Source: a virus. From it: 29,267 nucleotides of DNA. The stretch covers positions 1 to 29,267 of the IMG/VR virus record IMGVR_UViG_3300009181_000254; one strand, given 5' to 3'. The stretch's first letter is position 1, and each line of letters opens with the position of its first letter. Positions 1,463-25,209 of the stretch are shown piece by piece. The notes under the pieces were generated by a model. It did not search any database and had not been told where the DNA came from. It saw only the letters and a program-made list of their open reading frames with translations. Made by a program: the position numbers and the translations under genes.

Positions 1463-2350
1463 ATGGCATACGGAGTACAGGTGGTTGATAACGCCATCAA
1501 AGAGCAGATTGTTGACAAGTTCATTGGAACGAGCGCTGGTCGTCGCCACTTAGCGGCTTCTATGATTCAGCCTCTTCGCGAGCGTCGCGATTATTCGTCC
1601 GTTGGCCGCAAGACGTTCCTCGTCGAGCAGCTACCGGACGGAGCGCTTCCCATCTACGACAAGGACCCCGACGTCGTTGCTTACGTCATCGGGGAAGAAG
1701 GCGAGTCGATCACGGCGGTTTCTAAGCCCCGCCGTGTTATCTTCCCGCTCTTCGAGATCGCGGCCCTCCCCAAGGCTCCTCTTACGCAGATCAAGGAGCG
1801 TCGTTACGACCTCCTCAAGCGTATGCAGGACCTTGGTAAGGCTCAGATCCAGGCTGCTGAGGACGATCGCGTGTTCAGCATCCTCGATGCTATCGCGGTT
1901 AATGGCTTCGACAGCCTTCCTGGTGGTACGAACCCGGATATTCCGGTCGTTGCTCCCATCTCGCCTGCCATCCTTGCGGATGCGTTTGCCGAGATCGAGC
2001 GCCACGACCTGCGTGTTGCTCGCGTTTATATGAACGCGACCGATTACGCAGACGTTCGTAAGTTCGGACGCGACGTTCTCGATATCGAGAGCCAAGCGAC
2101 GCTCTGGAAGACCGGTATGATGGCAACGGGCTGGAACGCCCAGTTCATCGTCTCGCGTCTCGTTCCCGCAGGCGTTGTTTACGTCTGCTGCGAGCCCGAG
2201 ATGTTTGGTCGCATCCCGGTTCGTACTGAGCTGACCGTATTGAGCGCGGATAATCCCGAAGAGCGCACAATCGGGTTCAGCATGTTTGAGAATCTTGGTA
2301 TTGGCGCATACAATCCACGCGGATTAGTGCGCCTCATCGTCCAACGCTGA
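1463..2350 (+). CDS. Major capsid protein (HK97-fold type)
   Basis: A 295-residue protein that forms the icosahedral shell. Features of HK97-fold capsid proteins of large myoviruses are visible: an N-terminal arm with RERRDYSSVGRK, an acidic strand region (LPIYDKDPDVVAYVIGEEGE, an E-loop candidate), a long amphipathic helix around residues 110-140 (RRYDLLKRMQDLGKAQIQAA), and a P/A-domain region with IERHDLRVARVYMNATDYAD followed by a final beta segment. The start has an AAGGA ribosome binding site. Codon use is strikingly GC-rich (CGC, CTC, ATC, GAC), unlike most neighbours, as expected for the most abundant virion protein. A strong terminator follows at once. Family identity is from pattern recognition, not from a search. 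Confidence 0.8.
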   Translation: MAYGVQVVDNAIKEQIVDKFIGTSAGRRHLAASMIQPLRERRDYSSVGRKTFLVEQLPDGALPIYDKDPDVVAYVIGEEGESITAVSKPRRVIFPLFEIAALPKAPLTQIKERRYDLLKRMQDLGKAQIQAAEDDRVFSILDAIAVNGFDSLPGGTNPDIPVVAPISPAILADAFAEIERHDLRVARVYMNATDYADVRKFGRDVLDIESQATLWKTGMMATGWNAQFIVSRLVPAGVVYVCCEPEMFGRIPVRTELTVLSADNPEERTIGFSMFENLGIGAYNPRGLVRLIVQR

Positions 2351-2454: not shown

Positions 2455-3957
2455 ATGATGTGCAGAATATGCAATGCTGTTAGCCAGCACGATCTTTGCA
2501 ATGTATGTCGTCAGGATACTAACTACTTAGTAAAATACCCAGTATTAAAGAATATCCTTACAGATTCAGCCTTAGAGGTCTTGGATTTTAATCCCTCGCG
2601 CTCTGACTTTCAACGAGTAGACGTTATATGTGGTGAATGCAAGAGTACTAATAATATAGATTTAGTTAGCATCCTTAAATATATAAGACGTCATCTAAAA
2701 AAGAATCCCTATAACATATATAAGTGTCATTCATGTTCTAAAAGAGGGGAATCTCTCATTAGTCTCAAAGAGGTGATGCCGATCATAGATATGAAACTCA
2801 CACAGGAAAAACATGGTGGAATAGGTAAAAATGTAAAAAAGTCCCTTGTTGTGGTCAAATGCGAGGATTGTTATGAACTATCAGACATTAAGTTAAGTAG
2901 TTTACTGCATGGGGCTAGAAGGCATCAGAAGCTAGGTCGAAAGTGTATTTACAAGTGTTTTAAGTGTGGTGTTCTATTGCCGGATGCCATAAAGAAGTCC
3001 AATGATGCCAGAGCTAAGCAGTTAGCTGTAGGAGCCCGTTCTCATATCGAAGTCGCTTTAGCCAATAGATTAAAGGCTTTGAATATAGAATATGAGGAGT
3101 AGTTTCGTACCGATATGTATGTTTGGGACTTTTACCTCCCTAAGTATTTATTATTAATAGATGTAAATGGAGAATACTGGTATGGACTATCTCGGAATAA
3201 ATCAAAAGATAAGTCTAAACTGACTTATGTAGAAAATTATCTACCTGAATATAAAACCCTAATCATAGAGGAAAAGCGTTTTCTAAACCCCTTGATGGTA
3301 GATAAAATAATTAAGGACGCCATAGGAGAATCTAAGAAGATTACGGTAGAAGAGTTTAGCTTATTGGATGTGATCATTAATCAGTCCTCAAAGGTATCTA
3401 AGTCCAAAAGGTCTACGGAATCTGATTTTTTAAACTCTTATCATTACTCAGGATTTGGTCGGAACGGGAAATTAGTAATTACGGCACATCTTAATGAATC
3501 ATTGGTGGCACTTTGTAAATTTAGTGGTACGACTCGACAAGGCACTGCTAAGTCTTTGGGTTATAAATGTTATGAAGTCCTGGAACTTGACAGATTCTGC
3601 ATACATCCTTCTTATCATAAAAAGAACTTCGCTTCTTGGTTTTTGTCACGATGTATGAAATTAGTATTTGAATCGAATAAACTTATGCAATGTTTGGTAT
3701 CATTCGCAGATCCCACATATGGTCATACCGGCACTATTTATAAAGCCACAAATTGGGAAATGAAAGGCAAAACCAATCCAAGTTACCATTATATGGATCA
3801 CTTAGGGGTTCCAGTCAATAAGAAGAGGATTTATGACTTTGCACAAAAACTTCGGATGAAGGAAGCTGAATATGTTGAACTTCATGGACTACAGAAGTTC
3901 TCTGAATTACCCAAGATTAAATATGTTTACAAGCGTTTTTCATCCGGGTCTAGATAG
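2455..3957 (+). pseudogene. Homing endonuclease with C-terminal Mom-like domain, interrupted by in-frame TAG
   Basis: One reading frame of 501 codons is broken only by TAG at 3100-3102. The first part (215 residues) holds three pairs of CxxC zinc-binding motifs (CRIC/CNVC, CGEC/CHSC, CEDC/CFKC). The nuclease core spans the stop: ...IEYEE, TAG, FRTDMYVWDFYLP, then VNGEYWY. Against the intact relative at 14487 this aligns without a gap and the TAG falls on a Gln (CAG). The His of the GEYWH motif is Tyr here, so the nuclease site also looks degraded. The C-terminal part carries HYSGFGR, LELDRFCIHP, NFASWFLSR and SFADPTYGHTG, motifs of the Mom-like acyltransferase family. No ribosome binding site precedes the start. 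It is either a decaying element or two separate polypeptides (2455-3102 and 3115-3957). Confidence 0.8.
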
Positions 3958-5183: not shown

Positions 5184-5444
5184 ATGAAAATGCTTAACGT
5201 TGTTTCAGTTTTGATTCTAGCTCTCGTGTCTTGTGGTAAGGACGAAAGTAAGCCTGTTGATGCCGCTTCTTCGGCTTCCGTGGGCTCTGGTGGCTCCGGT
5301 GGTGCCAAAATGGTTAGTGGTTCAGGAGGCGCAGACGGAGACGGAGGAACGGGCGGAGCGGTTGCATCCTCGGTTTCCGGTTCTGGTGGAGCCGGTATGG
5401 GTGGTTCTGGTGGAGCCGGAATGGGTGGTTCTGGCGGCAAGTGA
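5184..5444 (+). CDS. Small Gly/Ser-rich lipoprotein
   Basis: An 86-residue protein with a signal peptide (MKMLNVVSVLILALVSC) and a lipobox LVSC, so Cys17 should be lipidated and the mature chain anchored in a membrane of a diderm cell. The mature part starts CGKDESKP, then becomes low-complexity with repeats of GSGGAGMGG, and has no folded domain. The start has a GGAG ribosome binding site 9 bases upstream. The gene stands alone between two strong terminators, so it has its own promoter (within 5159-5175 or inside the upstream hairpin region) and is an independently expressed accessory gene. Possible roles are superinfection exclusion or spanin-like work, but nothing in the sequence proves either. 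Confidence 0.75.
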   Translation: MKMLNVVSVLILALVSCGKDESKPVDAASSASVGSGGSGGAKMVSGSGGADGDGGTGGAVASSVSGSGGAGMGGSGGAGMGGSGGK

Positions 5445-5465: not shown

Positions 5466-5509
5466 AGGGGAAACGACCGATATCAGTCGTTTCCCCTCAT
5501 TAGTTTTTT
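5466..5509 (+). terminator. Strong hairpin terminator after lipoprotein gene
   Basis: A 12-bp perfect stem AGGGGAAACGAC / GTCGTTTCCCCT (5466-5477 with 5486-5497) is followed by a T-rich tail ending TTTTTT. It closes the single-gene lipoprotein unit. Confidence 0.9.
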
Positions 5510-5599
5510 CATATTGATTTGGTTTGTGGACCAGAAGATTTTTTCTTCTTCCATTTCTTACATTGTGCTACTTCTAAATAATCGGAAAGATTGACAGTT

Positions 5600-6136
5600 A
5601 TGGATCATTTCTATCAAAGTGTTTCTGGTTGGTTTGAATCTTTGGATTTATTTAGTTTCGTTGTAAATAAATATGATCAAGCTCACTTCGTTGAAGTAGG
5701 TTCTTGGAAGGGTCGCAGCTCCTGCTGTATGGCAGTAGAAATCATAAATTCGAAGAAATCTATCAAATTTGACTGTGTAGACTTATGGGAATACTCTGAT
5801 TCCCAAAATGATATTTCTTCTAATGAATTTGAAGGAGTATACGGGGAGTTTATTTCCAACATATCTAAAGTTGCCCATTATATAAATCCTGTAAAATCTA
5901 CTTCAGTAGAAGCATCTAAACTATATTTAGATGCTTCTTTAGATTTCGTCTTTATAGATGCAGCACATGATTATGAGAATGTGAAAAAAGATATAGAAGC
6001 TTGGTTACCTAAGATGAAGTCCGGTGGTATTATCTCTGGTCATGACTATTTCTTTTCTCAAGGGGTGAGACGTGCTGTACATGAAATACTCGGTGAAGTG
6101 CATACTACTTCAGAATCTTGGTATAAAGAAGTTTAA
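5600..6136 (+). CDS. Class I SAM-dependent methyltransferase
   Basis: A 178-residue protein with a Rossmann-type methyltransferase core: motif I at HFVEVGSWKGRSS, an acidic second strand (FDCVDLWEY), the motif IV-like segment DFVFIDAAHDYENVKKD and GGIISGHDY near the C terminus. This layout fits the Methyltransf_24 group, whose characterised members methylate sugars or small metabolites rather than DNA bases. I prefer ATG at 5600; a TTG three codons upstream lies too close to the GGAAAG purine stretch at 5584-5589. It sits between two lipoprotein genes, so a role in modifying cell-surface glycans is possible but unproven. Small size suggests the catalytic core only. Confidence 0.75.
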   Translation: MDHFYQSVSGWFESLDLFSFVVNKYDQAHFVEVGSWKGRSSCCMAVEIINSKKSIKFDCVDLWEYSDSQNDISSNEFEGVYGEFISNISKVAHYINPVKSTSVEASKLYLDASLDFVFIDAAHDYENVKKDIEAWLPKMKSGGIISGHDYFFSQGVRRAVHEILGEVHTTSESWYKEV

Positions 6137-6166: not shown

Positions 6167-7150
6167 ATGAATAAATCATACCTAATGGGGATTGTAACTT
6201 GGATATCGGCTGTTTGCTTGGCTGGCTGCCCGTCAGATTTGACTCAAAAGAAAAATGAGCAGGTTTCCAGATTAAGAATAGTTAATGGTTGCAGTGACCC
6301 GATGTGGATTTTCTGGTATAATTCTGAGGGTGGTGGGGACTCGGGTACCCCCAAAAAATTCATACTTGATGCTGGCAAACCCTATCTGGATGTGCAAATC
6401 CCAGACGCTGGATTTGCTGGTTCACGTTTTTGGCCGGGATATAACTGCGATCCTGAAGGAAACGGTTGTCAGATAGGACAGAGTGGTGGTCCCGCTAAGT
6501 ACGGGTTCACTTGTCCTCCTGAGGGTTGTGCTCCACCAGTTGATAGTAAATTCGAGGGTACATTCGGTTGTTTATCAACTGTCGACCCTTCTTTATGTCA
6601 AATAAACCCTTCTGGGGCTCCCGGTCAGCGTTTACCTACCGCTGATTCTTGGGACACTAGTATGGTGGATGGATATACTCTTCCATATAAAGTTAGGGTG
6701 CTAGACGATTGCATTGGTGGTCCTAATAACAACGCGATTGACTGTTCTAATCTTTCGATGTCTTCTTGTCCCGATAATGAGGATCTTTCTTCTGGCGGTA
6801 TTCATCCAGAATATTCTAGTATGGAACTAAACGTTAGTAACCCATCGACTGGAAAGAAAGCTGGATGTTTTTCTGATTGTGGAAGACTTACTTATAACAA
6901 TTGGAAGTATGAACCGGGGTTAAATCCGTCAGATTTACCGGCTGTTGATTATTGTTGTCCTGTATCGGAGATTAGTCCAGAATCTTGCCGAAAGGGGCCA
7001 GTAGCTAACACGAGTTATGTCGATCTTATACATCAACAATGTCCTCAAGTATATGCATACTCCTATGATGAAACAAATCCGAGCGGAGCATTGTGGTCCT
7101 GCCCAGCCGGGACCAGATATGAAGTGACGTTTTACTGCCCCAATTTTTGA
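6167..7150 (+). CDS. Thaumatin-like lipoprotein
   Basis: A 327-residue protein with a signal peptide and lipobox LAGC (Cys20), so it should be exported and lipid-anchored. The mature part matches the thaumatin / PR-5 fold in order: RIVNGCSDPMWIFW at the start, an acidic Gly-rich region with NCDPEGNGCQIG, DSWDTSMVDGYTLP (the family's 'VDGFNLP' segment), CSNLSMSSCP, GCFSDCGRL, DYCCPV, and CPQVYAYSYDE leading to the terminal YEVTFYCP. The many Cys residues fit the family's conserved disulphides. Family members bind or hydrolyse beta-glucans or act in defence; activity here cannot be predicted. Ribosome binding site GGAG. Thaumatin domains are very unusual in phages, so this is probably an acquired envelope-modifying gene. 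Confidence 0.85.
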   Translation: MNKSYLMGIVTWISAVCLAGCPSDLTQKKNEQVSRLRIVNGCSDPMWIFWYNSEGGGDSGTPKKFILDAGKPYLDVQIPDAGFAGSRFWPGYNCDPEGNGCQIGQSGGPAKYGFTCPPEGCAPPVDSKFEGTFGCLSTVDPSLCQINPSGAPGQRLPTADSWDTSMVDGYTLPYKVRVLDDCIGGPNNNAIDCSNLSMSSCPDNEDLSSGGIHPEYSSMELNVSNPSTGKKAGCFSDCGRLTYNNWKYEPGLNPSDLPAVDYCCPVSEISPESCRKGPVANTSYVDLIHQQCPQVYAYSYDETNPSGALWSCPAGTRYEVTFYCPNF

Positions 7151-8344: not shown

Positions 8345-9046
8345 ATGCAAATTAATGATGACCTACGTATTTCGAGTAATGGTGTAAAATTTATAACTAA
8401 GTGGGAGGGATTAAAACTTTCTAAATATTTATGTCCCGCTGGTAAATGGACTATTGGTGTGGGTCATGTTATACTTCCACATGAGAACATATCGGATACT
8501 ATTACAAAGGAGCGGGCTGAATCAATTCTGCGTTCCGATTTAGTGAGATTTGAAAAAGCAATCAAGAAGTTTATAACTGTACGTCTAAATCAAAATCAAT
8601 TTGATGCCCTGGTAAGTTTCATATTTAACACTGGTGAGGGTGGTATTAGAAATACTTCTGTACAATCGACGGTAAATGAGCAGAAGTTTTCAGAAGTACC
8701 TGAAAAACTCCAGATGTGGAGTAAAATGAGACAAAATGGAAAGTTGGTGGTTAGTCAGGGACTTTTAAGACGAAGAATGAGTGAGTCAGAATTATTCATG
8801 CTTTCTGTTCCTGAACCACCTTCAATGATTTTTCATTTATGGACTAAAGAATCATTGAAGGTGGTTCAGGCGGTTCTCACCGAATTGAATTTCTATGATA
8901 AATCCATAGATGGAATATACGGTCCTGGTACTGCCATGGGTCTTAAGAAATACTGTATGTCAATTAATTTTTTGGATGGTCAATATGATGACAATGGGAT
9001 TGCTAAATCTTTATATGATTCGATCGTGATCAAGAATCTAGGTTAA
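8345..9046 (+). CDS. GH24 lysozyme (endolysin) with C-terminal peptidoglycan-binding-like domain
   Basis: A 233-residue muramidase that should cut the glycan backbone of peptidoglycan at lysis. The catalytic Glu21 lies in KWEGLKLSKYLCPAGKWTIGVGH, with Cys30 in place of the T4 Asp20 and Thr36 at the T4 Thr26 position, the E-C-T version seen in many phage endolysins. The GH24 domain covers about residues 8-150 (FNTGEGG and LLRRRMSE are further family landmarks). Residues 165-215 resemble a PG-binding helical repeat (LKVVQAVLTELNFYDKSIDG). There is no signal peptide or SAR segment, so release through a holin is expected, consistent with 7683-8111 upstream. The stop codon overlaps that of the converging gene. 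Confidence 0.9.
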   Translation: MQINDDLRISSNGVKFITKWEGLKLSKYLCPAGKWTIGVGHVILPHENISDTITKERAESILRSDLVRFEKAIKKFITVRLNQNQFDALVSFIFNTGEGGIRNTSVQSTVNEQKFSEVPEKLQMWSKMRQNGKLVVSQGLLRRRMSESELFMLSVPEPPSMIFHLWTKESLKVVQAVLTELNFYDKSIDGIYGPGTAMGLKKYCMSINFLDGQYDDNGIAKSLYDSIVIKNLG

Positions 9047-9396: not shown

Positions 9397-9972
9397 TTAC
9401 ATTACCAATTCAGAAATTTTCTCTATACTGGTATGATCGGGAATCGCTAATCCTCGTTCTAAGTAATTTTTGATTCCTTCTAATGAATATTCTATCTTAT
9501 GATCATCATACCACTCTGGTTTTTTAGTGCCTTTATTCCACTTGGCAAATAATTTTTCTCCTTTATAATAAGACCGATATGCTACGATTGTGCCTTCATT
9601 CCGGTATATAAGAGGCATTACTTGTGGTGGTTTAGTGAATGATGATTCTCCCCATTGAATTCTACTCATGTCATTTGATACCCTGTTTAACACAGATAAG
9701 CAGGCATGTGTTTTATGGAATCTTTTCGTATACTCTCTTGATATTTCATAGGCATGGGTTAATAACCAAGAAAAGTTCCCTTCAGATTTCACTGTCCACC
9801 TAGAGCATGGGTGATTTTTCATCAGCAATCTATAAGGCGGGTCTGTTAATTTAAATATGTGATATGCATTAGAAAGCATTTGGGCTGATTCTAGCAGCAT
9901 CTTTGGAATATGTTTATCACATAAATTCTGAGCTGCAATATTTGGATCAAAATCAGTAAAGAATACGTTCAT
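9397..9972 (-). CDS. Conserved phage protein of the 'CDKH...HPCSxW' type
   Basis: A 191-residue protein starting MNVFFTDFDPNIAAQNLCDKHIPKM, followed by LESAQMLSNAYH, NHPCSRWTVKSEGNFSWLL and, near the C terminus, YRSYYKGEKLFAKWNKGTKKPEW. This order of motifs recurs in a widespread family of uncharacterised phage proteins. The invariant-looking Cys, His, Lys and Glu residues in CDKHIPKMLLES suggest an enzyme or metal site. Such proteins are sometimes labelled pyrimidine-dimer glycosylase-like, but I see no firm support for that here. It lies in the minus-strand series with the superoxide dismutase and transglycosylase genes. Confidence 0.75.
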   Translation of the reverse strand: MNVFFTDFDPNIAAQNLCDKHIPKMLLESAQMLSNAYHIFKLTDPPYRLLMKNHPCSRWTVKSEGNFSWLLTHAYEISREYTKRFHKTHACLSVLNRVSNDMSRIQWGESSFTKPPQVMPLIYRNEGTIVAYRSYYKGEKLFAKWNKGTKKPEWYDDHKIEYSLEGIKNYLERGLAIPDHTSIEKISELVM

Positions 9973-10555: not shown

Positions 10556-11113
10556 TCATGAGAATCTACTTGACACCATTCCCCAATCTATATATGGTTT
10601 TAAGGCAGTTAAATAACCATTCTTGTCGGTTCCCCAATCCATCCAGTATGCATGTTCCCAAACATCAATGACACACAAAGGATTATATCCAAATGCTGCT
10701 CCTTCATCATGAGAATTCATGGCGAAAATGCGGAGATTTTTCGAGCCTGGATCTTGTGCTAAAACGGCCCATCCCCGACAAGATAGACCCGTCGATTTCA
10801 TTTGTTCATACAAATTATCCAGAGACCCCCAATGTTCTAGTACATGTTCTACAAACGCACTTTCGGGCGGTTTTGGTTCCAGAGACAGATTGCTAAAATA
10901 AAGAGAATGGAGGTCTGCTCCTCCTACAGCATATCCATGATTACGCAATGACTTGGCTATGTTCCCGTCTAGGGCATTTTTATTTAGTGAATGTATTGAT
11001 TTTAGCTCTAAATCTGCTTTCTCAAGCATCTTAATGTAACCATCAAATAACTTTAAATGTTCGCTTAAAGCTCTCGAAGATGTGGCTCCCGGAAGTTCCG
11101 AATATCCTATCAT
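10556..11113 (-). CDS. Fe/Mn-type superoxide dismutase
   Basis: A 185-residue protein with the family signature DVWEHAYW (Asp150 and His154) near the C terminus, preceded by a beta-rich domain (GWAVLAQDPGSKNLRIF), and N-terminal helices with SEHLKLFDGYIKML (His19) and GGADLHSLYF (His69). Thus all four expected metal ligands (two N-terminal His, then Asp and His) appear present. It should convert superoxide to oxygen and hydrogen peroxide. It is slightly shorter than bacterial SodA/SodB (about 190-205 residues) and lacks an export signal, so a cytosolic role is expected. A phage SOD could protect the infected cell from oxidative stress, or be a structural relative with changed activity. It sits 23 bases downstream of the transglycosylase gene. 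Confidence 0.85.
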   Translation of the reverse strand: MIGYSELPGATSSRALSEHLKLFDGYIKMLEKADLELKSIHSLNKNALDGNIAKSLRNHGYAVGGADLHSLYFSNLSLEPKPPESAFVEHVLEHWGSLDNLYEQMKSTGLSCRGWAVLAQDPGSKNLRIFAMNSHDEGAAFGYNPLCVIDVWEHAYWMDWGTDKNGYLTALKPYIDWGMVSSRFS

Positions 11114-11136: not shown

Positions 11137-13053
11137 TCATTCTTGTAGTTCTGGATTTGGTACTTCAGGTTCATCGATTAAATCGGGTTCTGATTGGCCT
11201 ATTACTACCCATTCATTCAACCCGTTTTTTTCTTCTTCCTCTGTGATGAATTTTAACTTTTTCAGATTATTCATTACTAAATGGATGAACTTCATTTTAG
11301 AATCGGTGACTCTTCCGATTTTATCCCATGATACTGATTTAGGATTTGGAAGCAAAGAAGCCAGAAGTATGCATTGCGTGAGAGATAAACTGGCCGGGTT
11401 CGTATTGAAATATTTCTTGGCTGCGTTCCCGATTCCATATTCACCGGGAGAAAACTCTACTATGTTTAGATATGTTTCCATAATTTCGTTCTTGGATAAT
11501 ATCTGTTCCAAATGAACAGTAAAAAATGCCTCTTGAATTTTACGTGCCATGGTTTTCTTTCTATTCAGCCACAAGTTTTTCGCAGTCTGCATTGAAATCG
11601 TGCTACCTCCTCTAATGAATTTATGGGCTTTGATATTTTCAACCATTGAATTCTCGATTGCATTAATCAGTATGCCTTTATGCTTCATGAATGCTGAATC
11701 CTCGGTTCCCATAACAGAAATCGGCATATATTGTGAAATGTTAGAAAGACTAACCCAGTTTGGTGTTTGTGGACCTGTGACTTCTTCTATTTCTTCTCCT
11801 TTACTGTTTATTACTATTCGAGAATACTTGGACATTAGTACATTTCGTGAGTATTTTTTGGGAGAGCTCACCGAATGGCAGTTATGATTTAGTTTTATAC
11901 TAACTTGGGGATTTTTGGTTAGTAACGATGTACTGCCAGATATTTGTCCAGCGAATATGAATTCATCTAAATTGTCCTTCATGCTGTCTGGCAAGGCTTC
12001 TATCAGTGCTTGACATTCGGTTGTATCAAGCACTGTTTTGATTTCAAGGTCTTCACCATTCTTCTTTAGAATTCCGGAAATGTGGACTTCCCCAATCTTT
12101 AGATCGTAATCAAAAGTATCATCTATTTTAGATAGAAATATTTCAACACCGCGTATTTTTATATTTGACTTACTTAACTTCTCATTAGACCCATAGATGT
12201 AGCTAGATTTAAGAAACATCTTATTGTTCTTTATTTCTATGTTAACGCCTTCCATGTTCGTAATTTCTTCTTGATGCTGACTGATTTGAATTGATTCGCA
12301 ATTCATTGTATGCGACTTATAGTCGCCACTGATGGCATTTATGGAATAACTGTTATATTTAGCTTTAATCGATTTAAAAGAAAAAGATGGTACTGATTCT
12401 AACTGGTTATATATTTTGAGAATGTAGGACTCCATATCTGCTTCCTTTTTATTTTTAGAGTCTCGGGGTTCGATCTTCCTATCATCCTGATGCTTCAGCT
12501 CAAATGATATGTTTCCTAGTGATATCCTTCCGTCTTCATATGCTCCTTTGTCTATTGTAAACGCATTATCTCCCTTTACCAAAGACGCATTTGTAAATTT
12601 CACATATTTCTCTCCATTCATGTATGATGCCTCTGCAATATCTAACCTAACGTCATACCCGTGGGATTTAATGTTGGTTCTAATATTATTTAGGTGTAAT
12701 TCATAAACGCTTCTATGGCTGTCGTATGAATTCTTATTATCCTGGATATGTGTATAGTTTACATACCCATCATTTGCTTTTATTATGTACTGTTCCGGAT
12801 ATACGTAATTAATGTTCAGTGACCGGAAGTTTATGTCTTGGTTTTCCTTAAATATGTGTACCTCATGACAGTCAGCACCCATCCACCTCATGCTGCATTC
12901 TTGTACTTGAACTGAGTACCCTTTAGATTCTAACTTTTCTATAATTTTGTTTTTTACATATGTTGGTAAGTATGTAATCGTTGCTGAAAGAATCAAAAAT
13001 ACCATAAAGGAGATTTTGAATTTTAGGTTTTTTATAATTGGAAAAGCATTCAT
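11137..13053 (-). CDS. GT51 peptidoglycan glycosyltransferase with N-terminal membrane anchor and AsmA-like region
   Basis: A 638-residue protein; I start at the ATG at 13053 because an upstream ATG (13173) would overlap the divergent gene at 13081. One membrane segment (about residues 14-32) is followed by a long beta-rich extracytoplasmic region with AsmA-like character. The GT51 domain (about 435-600) has the catalytic motif TEDSAFMKHKG (Glu451), RGGSTISMQTAKNLWL, RKIQEAFFTVHLE and EYGIGNAAKKYF. These are the hallmarks of enzymes that polymerise lipid II into glycan strands. There is no transpeptidase domain. The enzyme builds rather than cuts the wall, which is surprising beside an endolysin. 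It is the first gene of the minus-strand series including the SOD, 27 bases from the divergent neighbour. Confidence 0.85.
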   Translation of the reverse strand: MNAFPIIKNLKFKISFMVFLILSATITYLPTYVKNKIIEKLESKGYSVQVQECSMRWMGADCHEVHIFKENQDINFRSLNINYVYPEQYIIKANDGYVNYTHIQDNKNSYDSHRSVYELHLNNIRTNIKSHGYDVRLDIAEASYMNGEKYVKFTNASLVKGDNAFTIDKGAYEDGRISLGNISFELKHQDDRKIEPRDSKNKKEADMESYILKIYNQLESVPSFSFKSIKAKYNSYSINAISGDYKSHTMNCESIQISQHQEEITNMEGVNIEIKNNKMFLKSSYIYGSNEKLSKSNIKIRGVEIFLSKIDDTFDYDLKIGEVHISGILKKNGEDLEIKTVLDTTECQALIEALPDSMKDNLDEFIFAGQISGSTSLLTKNPQVSIKLNHNCHSVSSPKKYSRNVLMSKYSRIVINSKGEEIEEVTGPQTPNWVSLSNISQYMPISVMGTEDSAFMKHKGILINAIENSMVENIKAHKFIRGGSTISMQTAKNLWLNRKKTMARKIQEAFFTVHLEQILSKNEIMETYLNIVEFSPGEYGIGNAAKKYFNTNPASLSLTQCILLASLLPNPKSVSWDKIGRVTDSKMKFIHLVMNNLKKLKFITEEEEKNGLNEWVVIGQSEPDLIDEPEVPNPELQE

Positions 13054-13080
13054 GTCGTAGTGTTTTCTGGAGGTTTTGAA

Positions 13081-14067
13081 ATGAGCACTATGTCTTGGAA
13101 ACGGGGAAATTACATCAAATTCTTTGCTAAGATGAAAATCCGGGTGGGTGGCGGGACCCCGATAGATATTCAAAGTGGTGATGAATTTGATTATGATGGT
13201 TCGATTTTAAGGTACTCAGGTATGGATATCCCATCACCTCAATTAAGAGGGGCAGTAGAAAACGGTTGGGTAGTACCCGCCAGTTTAGAAGAATCTGGTG
13301 ACAGGATAGATACCATACGACCCAATCGTAACATAGCAAAAGCCCAAACTGTAAACAAGGACTTGAGCCGCGTTCAGCGAGCGTCTGGTGCACAATTAAC
13401 CACTACTACTTTAGACGAAGATGAGGTTCTCAAAGTAGAAGATAGAGGATCCTCCAATAAAAAGAATCCTAAAGTATTGGTAGGTACAGATAACCGTAAA
13501 TCCAGGGGAATGGCCGTGTCTAGTGATACGACTGATGCTCAGGAAGCTGTATCAATTGGCAGGGTTCGCACTAGTGCCAAGGCTGTTTTTAATGACGTTT
13601 CGCGTCCTGACTCAATAAAAATAATGCAAGAATTGGAAAATATGAGCGGCGTTAAAGCCGACTTATTTAAAGATTCGGTAATTCAAAGAGAAGGGATTAC
13701 CATTACCACCAATTTAGGTAAAATGAACTCTGTTAGAGAAGCTGATGATGAATCTGGGACAGTGATTGCTCAGGTCAGAAATTCTTCCAAGGGATCTTTT
13801 GAAGGCATTTCTGTTAAGGACACTAGTGGTATTAGGAATAAGAAGCCCGGCGCTCCTAAGATTTCTGACCCTCGCTTAAGGGTAGCTCGCGCCATTGATC
13901 CTAGCTTCCCCATGGATTGGGCTTTTACTGGTAAGCTCGCTGAACGTTTAGAAAACATTAAGCGTCATGGGGCTACCGCAGAATTTTTGGAAGCTCTGTA
14001 TGCGGCAGAGGGTGATCAGATGAGAAAGACGTTGGTCAAGGAATTCCCTGATCAATTTGAAGGATGA
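13081..14067 (+). CDS. Hypothetical phage protein
   Basis: A 328-residue protein. ATG at 13081 is chosen because a GGAGG ribosome binding site lies 7 bases upstream; a GTG at 13060 would precede that site. The N-terminal 60 residues (KRGNYIKFFAKMKIRVGGGTPIDIQSGDEFDYDG...) look like a small beta domain. The middle is polar and low in hydrophobics, and the C-terminal 50 residues (DPSFPMDWAFTGKLAERLENIKRHG) form helices. No family is recognised. The strong ribosome binding site is shared only with the virion and lipoprotein genes here, suggesting high expression and perhaps a virion role. A long hairpin terminator follows. Confidence 0.7.
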   Translation: MSTMSWKRGNYIKFFAKMKIRVGGGTPIDIQSGDEFDYDGSILRYSGMDIPSPQLRGAVENGWVVPASLEESGDRIDTIRPNRNIAKAQTVNKDLSRVQRASGAQLTTTTLDEDEVLKVEDRGSSNKKNPKVLVGTDNRKSRGMAVSSDTTDAQEAVSIGRVRTSAKAVFNDVSRPDSIKIMQELENMSGVKADLFKDSVIQREGITITTNLGKMNSVREADDESGTVIAQVRNSSKGSFEGISVKDTSGIRNKKPGAPKISDPRLRVARAIDPSFPMDWAFTGKLAERLENIKRHGATAEFLEALYAAEGDQMRKTLVKEFPDQFEG

Positions 14068-14486: not shown

Positions 14487-15917
14487 ATGAATGGAGAAAA
14501 ACTAGCTAAATATTTAGCTACGTTAGAGCCTGGGTATACGAATAAATCCAGAATAACTTATACTTGTGAGATGTGTGGTATTCAAAATCACATTATTTTA
14601 AAATGCTTTAAAGAAAAAATATCTAAGGGCTCGTTATATTGTAAGAAGTGTTCACTGAAGCAGAAATGGCAAGATGAAGAATATCGATCTAAAATAAAGA
14701 AAAGTCAAGAAATAATATGGAATGAAACTGATACGAAAAATAAAATATCGGAAAAAAGCAAGAAATTGTGGCAAGATCCCGAATACAAATCTGCTCAGTT
14801 AAAAATTCACTCCGACCCCGAATATCTAAAATCAGCTAGAGAACATTCAATAGACAATTGGAAGAGTGTAGAATTCAGAGAAAACCAACTGAAAACTCGA
14901 AATACTCCTGATTTTAAAGCAAAACAGTCACAATCAATGCGTGATTTATGGAATTCTAACAAATATGTAGAAAAAACCCTTCTGTCCTTATCAAAAAAAT
15001 TCAGTAGTGACTTTAAATCATCGTTAGAGATCATAACATCTAATATTTTAACTGCTCTTAGTATTTCATATAAAGAGCAGTATGTAGTAGGACCCTATAT
15101 TTTTGATTTTTATCTTCCCGATTTTAAAGTATATATTGAATGTCAAGGAGAGTATTGGCATTCATTAGAATCTGCTGTTAAGCGTGATGCGAGTAAATCT
15201 ACTTATCTAAGGAAGGCTCATTCTGATAGTAAGTTTTTGTACTTAAATGAGGTAGATTTCTGCAATCCTACTTTAATCAAGCAAAAAATTATTAGTATTT
15301 GTGGTTCGACTGCCATAACACAGGTTAAGTCGTTCGAATTAAAAAGTGTAGATATTAAGTTAATTAAAAAGGATGATCGGGATTTTAATTTAGCACATAA
15401 CTTGTTAACTAGTTTTCATTATGCGGGTTTTGGTAGAGCTGCTAAGGTAATATTTGGAGCATATAAGGATAAGGAGCTCATAGCCGTATGTAAGTTTTCA
15501 CCGCCAATAAGACAGGAAGTGGCCACCTCTTTAGGCATTAGTCCTAAAAATATGCTTGAGCTTGATAGGTTCTGTATAAAACCAGATAGGCAAATAAAGA
15601 ATTTTGCTAGTTGGTTTTTATCGAGAGCAGCTAAACTCATTTTTAGTATAGATTCTTCAAAATCTCACTTGGTGTCTTTTGCTGATAGCACTTACAATCA
15701 CTTAGGAACTATTTATAAAGCAGCCAATTGGGCGTATGTTGGTGTTGTTTCCCCTGATTATTACTACGTTAATGGTCAGGGCTGGATATTACACAAAAAG
15801 ACATTATATAATCAAGCTGTAAGAAATAAAATGAGGGAGTCTGATTATGCTGAAAAGCATCATTATGTAAAAATATACGGAAAAGAAAAATATAAATTTA
15901 TTCTTGCTAAGTCTTGA
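14487..15917 (+). CDS. Homing endonuclease with C-terminal Mom-like acyltransferase domain (intact copy)
   Basis: A 476-residue multidomain protein. Residues 24-62 hold a zinc ribbon (CEMC...CKKC). Residues 65-170 carry repeated helical units with WxDPEYK/LW motifs, likely DNA-binding NUMOD-like repeats. Residues 172-270 are an EDxHD/Vsr-like nuclease core: SSLE, YIFDFYLPDFKVYIECQGEYWH and KRDASKS. The C-terminal half has SFHYAGFGRA, LIAVCKFSPPIRQ, LELDRFCIKP, NFASWFLSRA and LVSFADSTYNHLGTIYKAANW, matching the Mom-like GNAT family (phage Mu Mom modifies adenine in DNA). It should cut DNA at a target site and perhaps modify DNA. Inserted between two phage genes with no disruption; relatives are at 2455 (broken) and 23305. 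Confidence 0.8.
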   Translation: MNGEKLAKYLATLEPGYTNKSRITYTCEMCGIQNHIILKCFKEKISKGSLYCKKCSLKQKWQDEEYRSKIKKSQEIIWNETDTKNKISEKSKKLWQDPEYKSAQLKIHSDPEYLKSAREHSIDNWKSVEFRENQLKTRNTPDFKAKQSQSMRDLWNSNKYVEKTLLSLSKKFSSDFKSSLEIITSNILTALSISYKEQYVVGPYIFDFYLPDFKVYIECQGEYWHSLESAVKRDASKSTYLRKAHSDSKFLYLNEVDFCNPTLIKQKIISICGSTAITQVKSFELKSVDIKLIKKDDRDFNLAHNLLTSFHYAGFGRAAKVIFGAYKDKELIAVCKFSPPIRQEVATSLGISPKNMLELDRFCIKPDRQIKNFASWFLSRAAKLIFSIDSSKSHLVSFADSTYNHLGTIYKAANWAYVGVVSPDYYYVNGQGWILHKKTLYNQAVRNKMRESDYAEKHHYVKIYGKEKYKFILAKS

Positions 15918-23304: not shown

Positions 23305-25209
23305 ATGTATAATTGTGAGTATTGTGGGAAAGAATTTCCACGACCAGTCACATCTGGTCATAAGAGGAAGTGTCCGGAGTTCCTCGCAGCTAAGCCCTTA
23401 GATGAGAGAAAACCACCTGCATGTCTTTGTGGTCATCAAGAAAATTCCTTCACTAGTATGAAGAGACACAGAGGTATATGTGAATTATGGAAAAATAGAG
23501 ATAAAAAACAAGTAACTAATGAAAGAATAATAAATACTTTCGAAAAAAGGTATGGGTCAGGTGTAACTAATGCTATTCATATTCCAGATGCTAGGAGAAA
23601 AAAGGAAGAAACCAATCTAAAGAAGTACGGGGCTATAAATACCTTTTGTAAGGATTCTATATTATATGATCAAATTCAAAGTTATTGGAATGGAAAAGAT
23701 AGGTCAGCTCACTTAGATAAAAATAACTGGGCGCGACCTGAAGTTAAAGCCAAGATTAAAGAATCTAATTTAAGAAAATATGGTGTAACCAATCCGTCTT
23801 TACATCCAGAAATTCGTGCTAAACAGCTGGCCACTTCTAAGGAGCGTTATGGTGATGAACAGACTTTAAGAGTTCCTGAAATTAGAGCCAAGGGAATAAA
23901 TACTATGATTGAAAAATATGGAGTTCCCAATGCAATGAAACTTGAAGAAATCCAAAATAAAGTCAAGGGAACTAATTTAGAAAATTACGGTGTTGAATGG
24001 ACTACTCAAGATATGAATACACGTTTAAAACAATATGAAAGCCAGATTAATCATTACGGTAGTTATTACTTTCAGACTACTGAGGCTAAGAAAATTATAA
24101 AAGACAAATTTCCTGAATCATTAGACAAATTTCATGCTACCAACATAGAACGCTATGGGGTCCCCCATCCTATGCAGAACCCCGAGTATGCTAGAAATCA
24201 ATTACAACATTCTAGACGTTCAGGACCGAATAATCTAGAGAAAAAATTCCAGAGCATCTTCCCTCAATTTTTATTTACAGGAGATGGTTCATACTGGAGA
24301 TATTTACCAGCATTAAGTAAGAATAAAAACCCTGATTTTCTTCTGATAGGTCCCGAACCTGAAAATCCGTTCCATGGTGCAAACTCAATAGTAGAAATAT
24401 TTGGTGATTATTGGCATTCTGAACGTTTTACAGGATTAAATAATGAAGACCATGAATCTTTGACTATTGCAGCATGGAATGAAATAGGTATGAATTGTTT
24501 AGTTATCTGGGAAAATGAATTTAAGACAAATAATTGGAAATCTAAAGTAAAATATTATCTTAATAGGATCAAGATAAGCAATTCAGTACCTGTTGGTGTC
24601 AAGCGTAATCCGTCACTTATCAATCAGGATTTGGTAGATTTTTCCTTTTCAGATATTAAGATATCACGTCTATCTAGTTTCGATGACGCTAAAAAGTTTT
24701 TAGATGACTATCATTATTCTGGATATGGGCGTGCAGGATCTGTAAATTATGGAGTGTATTTAGGTACCGATTTGCTTGCAGTTGTTAAATTCGCCTCGCC
24801 TGTCCGTCAGGGCATCGCCGCCACTCTCAAAATAGAGTCAAAGCAGCTTTTGGAGTTAGACCGTTTTTGCATTCACCCGTCTCGTCACAAGAAAAACTTT
24901 GCCTCATTCATCATGGCTCGTGTAATTCGCCTTATTAAGCGGGACTTTCCTATCATTCGTAAGTTAGTTAGCTTTGCCGATCCTCGTGCTGGTCATACCG
25001 GTCATATCTACAAGGCATCTAACTGGACCGATTTAGGTAAAACTGCTCCCTCTTATTATTACCTCGATCCTAATGGAAATGAAGTTAACAAAAAGACTCT
25101 TTACCAGTCCGCCAAGCGTCAAGGCCTAATAGAGCGCGAATATTTTGAGTCTTTAGGTTATAAGAAAGTGCAGACACCCGCGAAATTTAAGTATTCCTAC
25201 ACTTTATGA
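23305..25209 (+). CDS. Large homing endonuclease with C-terminal Mom-like acyltransferase domain
   Basis: A 634-residue protein. Two zinc-finger motifs open it (CEYCGKEFPRPVTSGHKRKC and CLCG...HRGIC). Residues 70-310 hold at least five repeats of the form N-x-x-K/R-Y-G-V-x-N-P/A (for example NLRKYGVTNPSLHPEIRAKQ, EKYGVPNAMK, ERYGVPHPMQ), typical DNA-binding repeats of phage homing enzymes. The nuclease core has NNLEKKF, NPDFLL and IVEIFGDYWHSE...NEDHES, fitting an EDxHD-type site with the His intact. The C terminus has YHYSGYGRAG, ELDRFCIHPSRHKKNFASF, VSFADPRAGHTGHIYKASNW, Mom-like. From about 24780 onward codon use shifts to CGT for Arg and more GC, unlike the AGA-rich N terminus, suggesting a chimeric origin. 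Confidence 0.8.
   Translation: MYNCEYCGKEFPRPVTSGHKRKCPEFLAAKPLDERKPPACLCGHQENSFTSMKRHRGICELWKNRDKKQVTNERIINTFEKRYGSGVTNAIHIPDARRKKEETNLKKYGAINTFCKDSILYDQIQSYWNGKDRSAHLDKNNWARPEVKAKIKESNLRKYGVTNPSLHPEIRAKQLATSKERYGDEQTLRVPEIRAKGINTMIEKYGVPNAMKLEEIQNKVKGTNLENYGVEWTTQDMNTRLKQYESQINHYGSYYFQTTEAKKIIKDKFPESLDKFHATNIERYGVPHPMQNPEYARNQLQHSRRSGPNNLEKKFQSIFPQFLFTGDGSYWRYLPALSKNKNPDFLLIGPEPENPFHGANSIVEIFGDYWHSERFTGLNNEDHESLTIAAWNEIGMNCLVIWENEFKTNNWKSKVKYYLNRIKISNSVPVGVKRNPSLINQDLVDFSFSDIKISRLSSFDDAKKFLDDYHYSGYGRAGSVNYGVYLGTDLLAVVKFASPVRQGIAATLKIESKQLLELDRFCIHPSRHKKNFASFIMARVIRLIKRDFPIIRKLVSFADPRAGHTGHIYKASNWTDLGKTAPSYYYLDPNGNEVNKKTLYQSAKRQGLIEREYFESLGYKKVQTPAKFKYSYTL

Follow-up and report, generated by a model that had tools for sequence, protein, structure and literature searches.

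Genes and features of a phage contig end

The window, by which we mean the whole stretch of 29,267 bases that was analysed, carries a gene for a thaumatin-like lipoprotein together with genes for a major head protein, a methyltransferase, a second lipoprotein and an endolysin. The main features are as follows.

1463 to 2350, plus strand: major head protein, a phage hallmark (phrog_2522; 38% identical to the major head protein of Bacillus phage G)
2371 to 2406, plus strand: strong terminator-like hairpin closing the head-protein unit (consensus match only)
5184 to 5444, plus strand: second small lipoprotein with lipobox LVSC and a Gly/Ser-rich tail (from the sequence)
5466 to 5497, plus strand: terminator-like hairpin between the small lipoprotein and the methyltransferase-thaumatin pair (consensus match only)
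5591 to 6136, plus strand: SAM-dependent methyltransferase (Methyltransf_24, Pfam, 72.3 bits)
6167 to 7150, plus strand: thaumatin-like lipoprotein gene, 327 amino acids, ATG start (PF00314 score and fold match)
6167 to 6229, plus strand: signal peptide II with lipobox LAGC, lipidated Cys21 and Pro at +2 (from the sequence)
6230 to 6265, plus strand: short linker from lipid anchor to domain (alignment A2)
6266 to 7147, plus strand: thaumatin-like domain with 18 Cys and a candidate acidic cleft (alignments, Cys columns, model with pLDDT 75.3)
8345 to 9046, plus strand: endolysin (Phage_lysozyme, Pfam, 126 bits), 1.2 kb downstream of the thaumatin-like gene

All 29,267 bases of the window match bases 227,937 to 257,203 of the 257,205-base contig G001 with 0 mismatches. 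This contig also encodes a terminase large subunit (at 216.6 kb), a head maturation protease (at 225.7 kb), a ribonucleotide reductase and a helicase, and the phage has a GC content of 39%. Between the major head protein of the window and its counterpart in an uncultured 485-kb phage, identity is 77%. Relatives of the window's head protein were found in 437 IMG/VR stretches, and the best 80 of these 437 include contigs up to 619 kb. The first-pass annotation had described the thaumatin-like gene as encoded by a phage, and the terminase, head maturation protease and major head protein on the same contig bear this out. The window is thus not contaminating host DNA: it closes a 257-kb phage contig on which terminase, protease and head genes are also encoded.

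Some further properties of the contig should be mentioned. The major head protein (1463 to 2350) is 90 to 97% identical over dozens of contigs with widely differing neighbours and is thus an unusually conserved marker of this giant-phage group. Bases 1 to 250 of the window contain an in-frame GAGGAA repeat translated into poly-Glu, which likely reflects an assembly break relative to the 257-kb contig. At about 153.5 kb of G001 (L039:13497-13571), ARAGORN predicts a tRNA-SeC with anticodon tca, possibly a suppressor-type tRNA instead of one for selenocysteine.

The methyltransferase gene ends 30 bases upstream of the thaumatin-like gene, and the two possibly form one transcription unit. The thaumatin-like gene lies in a variable island that extends from the hairpin at 2371 to 2406 to the next block kept in relatives (from 13060). 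Rfam gave no match within the window. On the minus strand, 11137 to 13173 encodes a 677-amino-acid protein with a C-terminal GT51 Transgly peptidoglycan glycosyltransferase domain (162 bits) and a long N-terminal part, which is odd for a phage; relatives of this protein are found near the head genes of L114 and L137. On the same strand, only the C-terminal domain of an Fe/Mn superoxide dismutase is recognised at 10556 to 11113 (Sod_Fe_C, 73 bits), and a pyrimidine dimer DNA glycosylase (PF03013) at 9397 to 9972 is barely over the cut-off. Three Mom-family (GNAT) domains are encoded at 2455 to 3957, 14487 to 15917 and 23305 to 25209, two of them fused to endonuclease-like parts (DUF559-like; DUF7487). 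These reading frames are apparently mobile elements, and in relatives they also lie directly behind the head gene. The first region consists of two reading frames 12 bases apart (2455 to 3102 and 3115 to 3957) that look like one endonuclease-Mom fusion that has been split, and the same order is found in L078.

Family membership, predicted fold and lipid anchor

Best known from plant defence and from its sweet-tasting proteins, the thaumatin/PR-5 family also has members in bacteria. The product of 6167 to 7150 is almost certainly a true member of this family, made as a lipoprotein by a giant tailed phage. In a Pfam search, residues 40 to 322 matched positions 1 to 207 of the 209 positions of PF00314 Thaumatin (E 4e-15) with 56.5 bits, compared to a curated cut-off of 27.4 bits, and the same profile gave 0 matches among 14 control genomes. 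The segments 'IVNGCS', 'VDGYTLP' and 'YEVTFYCP', on which the first-pass annotation had based its thaumatin/PR-5 assignment, are all present, and the assignment holds. Solved thaumatin-like proteins are already reached with phmmer (Puccinia TLP 7p23, E 4e-8), and a profile built from nine relatives extends this to 26 distinct thaumatin-like PDB sequences (E <= 1e-5). Proteins with 51 to 59% identity to the window protein are encoded in three other viral contigs and in Nannocystis, and the closest phage pair has a pN/pS of 0.29, indicating purifying selection. Because the reading frame is kept in these contigs and in Nannocystis and is under purifying selection, it is not a chance one.

With the window's own, a search of viral databases for homologues yielded nine distinct thaumatin-like versions on viral contigs; phage head or packaging genes accompany four of the nine. 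The seven versions that were scored all exceed the PF00314 cut-off, and the other two were found by tblastn. The IMG/VR contigs with relatives are of 298 kb (L003), 199 kb (L004), 19 kb (L005), 38 kb (L075), 152 kb (L077), 619 kb (G511, L159) and 147 kb (L163). Identical copies are present on L160 (54 kb) and L161 (24 kb), and the 5.9-kb contig of L020 has a partial copy of the L005 version.

A template-free model of the window protein was built from nine sequences (the window and its relatives' loci) and is of moderate confidence, with a pLDDT of 75.3 and a pTM of 0.79; a model from four sequences was poor (pLDDT 45). Foldseek matched the nine-sequence model to 28 thaumatin-like PDB chains with a probability of 1.00, all at E <= 4.8e-8 and with TM scores on the target of 0.65 to 0.76, the best match being 3zs3 (E 1.6e-12). 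Next in rank after the thaumatin-like proteins were GH64 beta-1,3-glucanases and the thaumatin-like xylanase inhibitor TLXI. The beta-sandwich that a thaumatin assignment implies was therefore recovered in the comparison with solved structures, and the model, although uncertain in its loops, strongly supports this fold for the window protein. The eukaryotic PR-5 proteins of PF00314 (such as Mal d 2, 3zs3; Pru av 2, 2ahn; osmotin, 1pcv; and Puccinia TLP, 7p23) share with it the fold, the 16 Cys and presumably the acidic-cleft residues, but they are only about 20% identical, are about 60 to 90 residues shorter and are not bacterial-type lipoproteins. The solved bacterial thaumatin-like protein of Amycolatopsis rifamycinica (7p22) has the same fold (TM 0.65 to 0.66 on the target), but it is 16 to 17% identical and belongs to a different subfamily.

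By alignment, the window protein has equivalents of the 16 canonical thaumatin Cys and an extra pair, C135/C144, giving 18 Cys. L075, Nannocystis and the close phage relatives all have this extra pair as well. C42 and C324, the first and the last of the canonical Cys, are both kept in the window protein and in Nannocystis and are both lost in L003, L004 and L005. Such joint loss is the behaviour expected of a disulphide pair, and we predict that the two are paired. Residues R87, E130, D163, D168 and D301 are presumably the equivalents of the osmotin-type REDDD acidic-cleft residues, as judged by sequence alignment and the osmotin numbering. The 13 sequences of alignment A2 show no variation at R87, E130, D168 and D301. 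At the D163 position, several bacterial relatives and L075 have Asn; L075, which is outside A2, also has Gly at the D168 position.

The first-pass annotation had also proposed an SPase II lipoprotein signal (LAGC). Inspection and pattern matching of the N-terminus, MNKSYLMGIVTWISAVCLAGC, agree with this, as a basic n-region is followed by a hydrophobic h-region and a lipobox with its Cys. A lipobox is found in all nine distinct viral versions (LAGC, FPSC, LFSC, LSGC, VSGC, LASC, LVAC, FSC and LVAC), and the myxobacterial thaumatin-like kin are also lipoproteins wherever the N-terminus was read. The residue at +2 is Pro or Gly in the window protein and in five other viral versions, and Lys in G511 and L163. 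In Myxococcus xanthus, inner-membrane lipoproteins tend to carry Lys at +2 (PMC3222651). As the window protein has neither Asp nor Lys at this position, it would be expected to be sorted to the outer membrane; the Lys of the G511 and L163 copies would in Myxococcus favour the inner membrane, which argues against an outer-membrane reading.

Genomic context and bacterial kin

Apart from the window's contig, firm evidence for phage origin beyond the IMG/VR label comes from G003, the contig of L004 (terminase and a 78%-identical head protein), from L005 (thaumatin-like gene surrounded by portal, scaffold and major head genes) and from G511 (79%-identical head protein). The terminase profiles phrog_2, phrog_9 and Terminase_6N had no match in contigs G002, G484 and G485, nor did phrog_9 and Terminase_6N in contigs G517 to G519; these contigs owe their viral label to IMG/VR and to the presence of single phage-type genes. 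The match to the terminase large subunit in G003 (G003:C1:119632-121407) contains one in-frame TGA, which could be an insertion, an error or recoding.

Among 32 contigs with the same head-protein family, the thaumatin-like gene is present in two, G003 and G511, the latter with a distant version. Many of the 32 are fragments; 14 exceed 190 kb, and 12 of these 14 are without the gene. On G003 the gene is located about 25 kb from the head gene and does not adjoin it. L003 and L004 encode thaumatin-like proteins that are 80% identical and have no other real reading frame in common over the roughly 10 kb compared on each side. The presence in only 2 of 32 contigs, the mosaic context, the terminator-like hairpins (by consensus only) and the myxobacterial kin together strongly support the view that the thaumatin-like gene is a mobile accessory gene that behaves as a moron.

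In a scan of species genomes, the closest proteins came from three Nannocystis species (N. pusilla, N. bainbridge and Nannocystis sp. RBIL2), with 55 to 57% identity over the domain. They share with the window protein the extra Cys pair, the DSKFEGTFGC and WDTSMVDG signatures and the lipobox, but they are chromosomally encoded and have a long Ser/Thr-rich linker, where that of the window protein is short. A prophage origin of the Nannocystis copies was rejected, as the 12.9 kb that were read contain ordinary-looking chromosomal neighbours and no phage genes. Close homologues of the Nannocystis type occur in 4 of 379 Myxococcota genomes (E <= 1e-6). Out of 193 genomes from the same class, 26 encode a thaumatin domain of any kind. 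A Comamonas plasmid encodes a 35%-identical relative. A scan with purely bacterial patterns (alignment A3) returned no viral relative.

A tree with 40 rows places the phage copies in at least three separate clades among bacterial (myxobacterial) thaumatin-like lipoproteins. One group with full support unites the window protein, L003, L004, L005 and Nannocystis, and L075 is its neighbour. Judging from these sequence relationships, giant phages seem to have taken up the thaumatin-like gene several times from myxobacteria-type soil bacteria. The donor phylum is a lead rather than a result, because the profile survey covered Myxococcota alone. Nannocystis genomes are G+C-rich, and the 39% GC of the phage by itself does not fit a G+C-rich host.

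The first-pass annotation had considered a lipid-anchored thaumatin of a phage to be rare or undescribed. For phages this stands: no thaumatin-like match was found in PHROGs, NCBIfam or about 50,700 INPHARED phages, the BFVD structure library gave no phage protein among the confident matches, and in the open-access literature we found no relevant paper on thaumatin in phages. For viruses overall it does not, as thaumatin-like proteins are known in eukaryotic viruses, namely giant viruses (Tupanvirus), a brown-alga virus (Feldmannia species virus) and closterovirids (PMC8297929). These have the same domain in a virus, but they infect eukaryotes and a separate origin would be expected. Nor is the lipid anchor the odd part, since the myxobacterial kin are lipoproteins too. 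A lipid anchor is the rule in this thaumatin subfamily; the phage setting and its recurrence are the novelty. The phage-borne, lipid-anchored branch is thus new for phages in the libraries and collections searched.

Possible roles at the host envelope

We tentatively propose that the protein may be an outer-membrane lipoprotein that binds a surface glycan or receptor and thereby blocks superinfection. Of the roles considered this is the likeliest, although it is possible rather than probable, and we infer export, sorting, ligand and exclusion alike. During infection, the phage would express the protein from a separate small transcription unit. Judging from its sequence, the protein would be exported, would form its disulphides in the periplasm and, once lipidated, would reach the outer membrane of a Gram-negative host. 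At that site, the acidic cleft could bind a surface polysaccharide or protein, and the bound protein might mask or block the receptor or entry route of other phages, which would amount to lipoprotein-based superinfection exclusion. The protein may also keep progeny from sticking to debris. Such a role fits a domain that is accessory, membrane-anchored and repeatedly acquired and that comes from a family with a history of glycan binding. Llp of phage T5 is a phage-made envelope lipoprotein that acts in superinfection exclusion (PMC9586334). The likeness is in logic only, both being phage-encoded envelope lipoproteins, as Llp is an unrelated protein that blocks FhuA from the periplasm. Moreover, T5 Llp is an early product, but the thaumatin-like gene lies near head and lysis genes and not among genes of evident early type, and this counts against exclusion. 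PADLOC anti-phage defence models gave no match.

Some plant and fungal thaumatin-like proteins are beta-1,3-glucanases (CAZy GH152). The window protein could therefore be a lipid-anchored enzyme of this type, or a glucan binder, that loosens capsule, slime or matrix and, together with the endolysin encoded nearby, lets progeny escape or re-adsorb less. In osmotin-type proteins the five acidic-cleft residues are linked to glucan binding or hydrolysis, and the window protein has candidate equivalents of all five, R87, E130, D168 and D301 being invariant in A2; GH64 beta-1,3-glucanases rank next in the structure search. However, an anchor that holds the enzyme at the producing cell is a poor fit for a release enzyme, and the cleft is altered in some relatives (Asn for D163 in several bacterial ones and in L075, Gly for D168 in L075), so that we consider this role unlikely.

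The thaumatin family also includes the xylanase inhibitor TLXI and amylase/trypsin-inhibitor members. An inhibitor or binder of an enzyme at the envelope might protect the infected cell against predators or against depolymerases and proteases of competitors, and the appearance of TLXI in the fold search, the disulphide-rich design with 18 Cys and the myxobacterial lipoproteins as bacterial kin are consistent with this. An inhibitor would not need the acidic-cleft residues, yet these are kept, and we regard this possibility as quite unlikely. We are equally doubtful about a host-fitness (conversion) gene, a copied myxobacterial surface lipoprotein used for matrix building or predation in long-lasting infections. 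That the nearest cellular kin are chromosomal Nannocystis lipoproteins, that an integrase gene lies about 1 kb from the L003 copy and that phage copies occur in at least three clades would suit such a gene, but close homologues in just 4 of 379 Myxococcota hardly indicate a general host need, and most giant phages are lytic. A virion or head-decoration protein, as the position of the L005 copy between scaffold and major head genes might suggest, is highly improbable, as the signal peptide and lipobox of all nine versions direct the protein to the envelope, away from cytoplasmic head assembly, and 30 of the 32 contigs with the same head-protein family lack the gene.

If superinfection exclusion is the role, a broader scenario can be envisaged, which we think somewhat unlikely as a whole: giant phages would repeatedly have recruited surface lipoproteins of predatory myxobacteria as lipid-anchored, glycan-binding exclusion proteins, and the Nannocystis gene, which in the tree stands among phage copies, may even be a phage gene returned to a host.

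These results extend the thaumatin/PR-5 family to tailed phages. Its uptake there was recurrent, with at least three clades, and always in the form of a lipoprotein. Such repeated uptake in the same form argues for a definite task at the infected cell's envelope, probably in phage-phage competition or in the handling of host polysaccharides, and the protein probably coats or alters the surface of that cell. For giant phages, the thaumatin-like gene may also provide a hint of the host.
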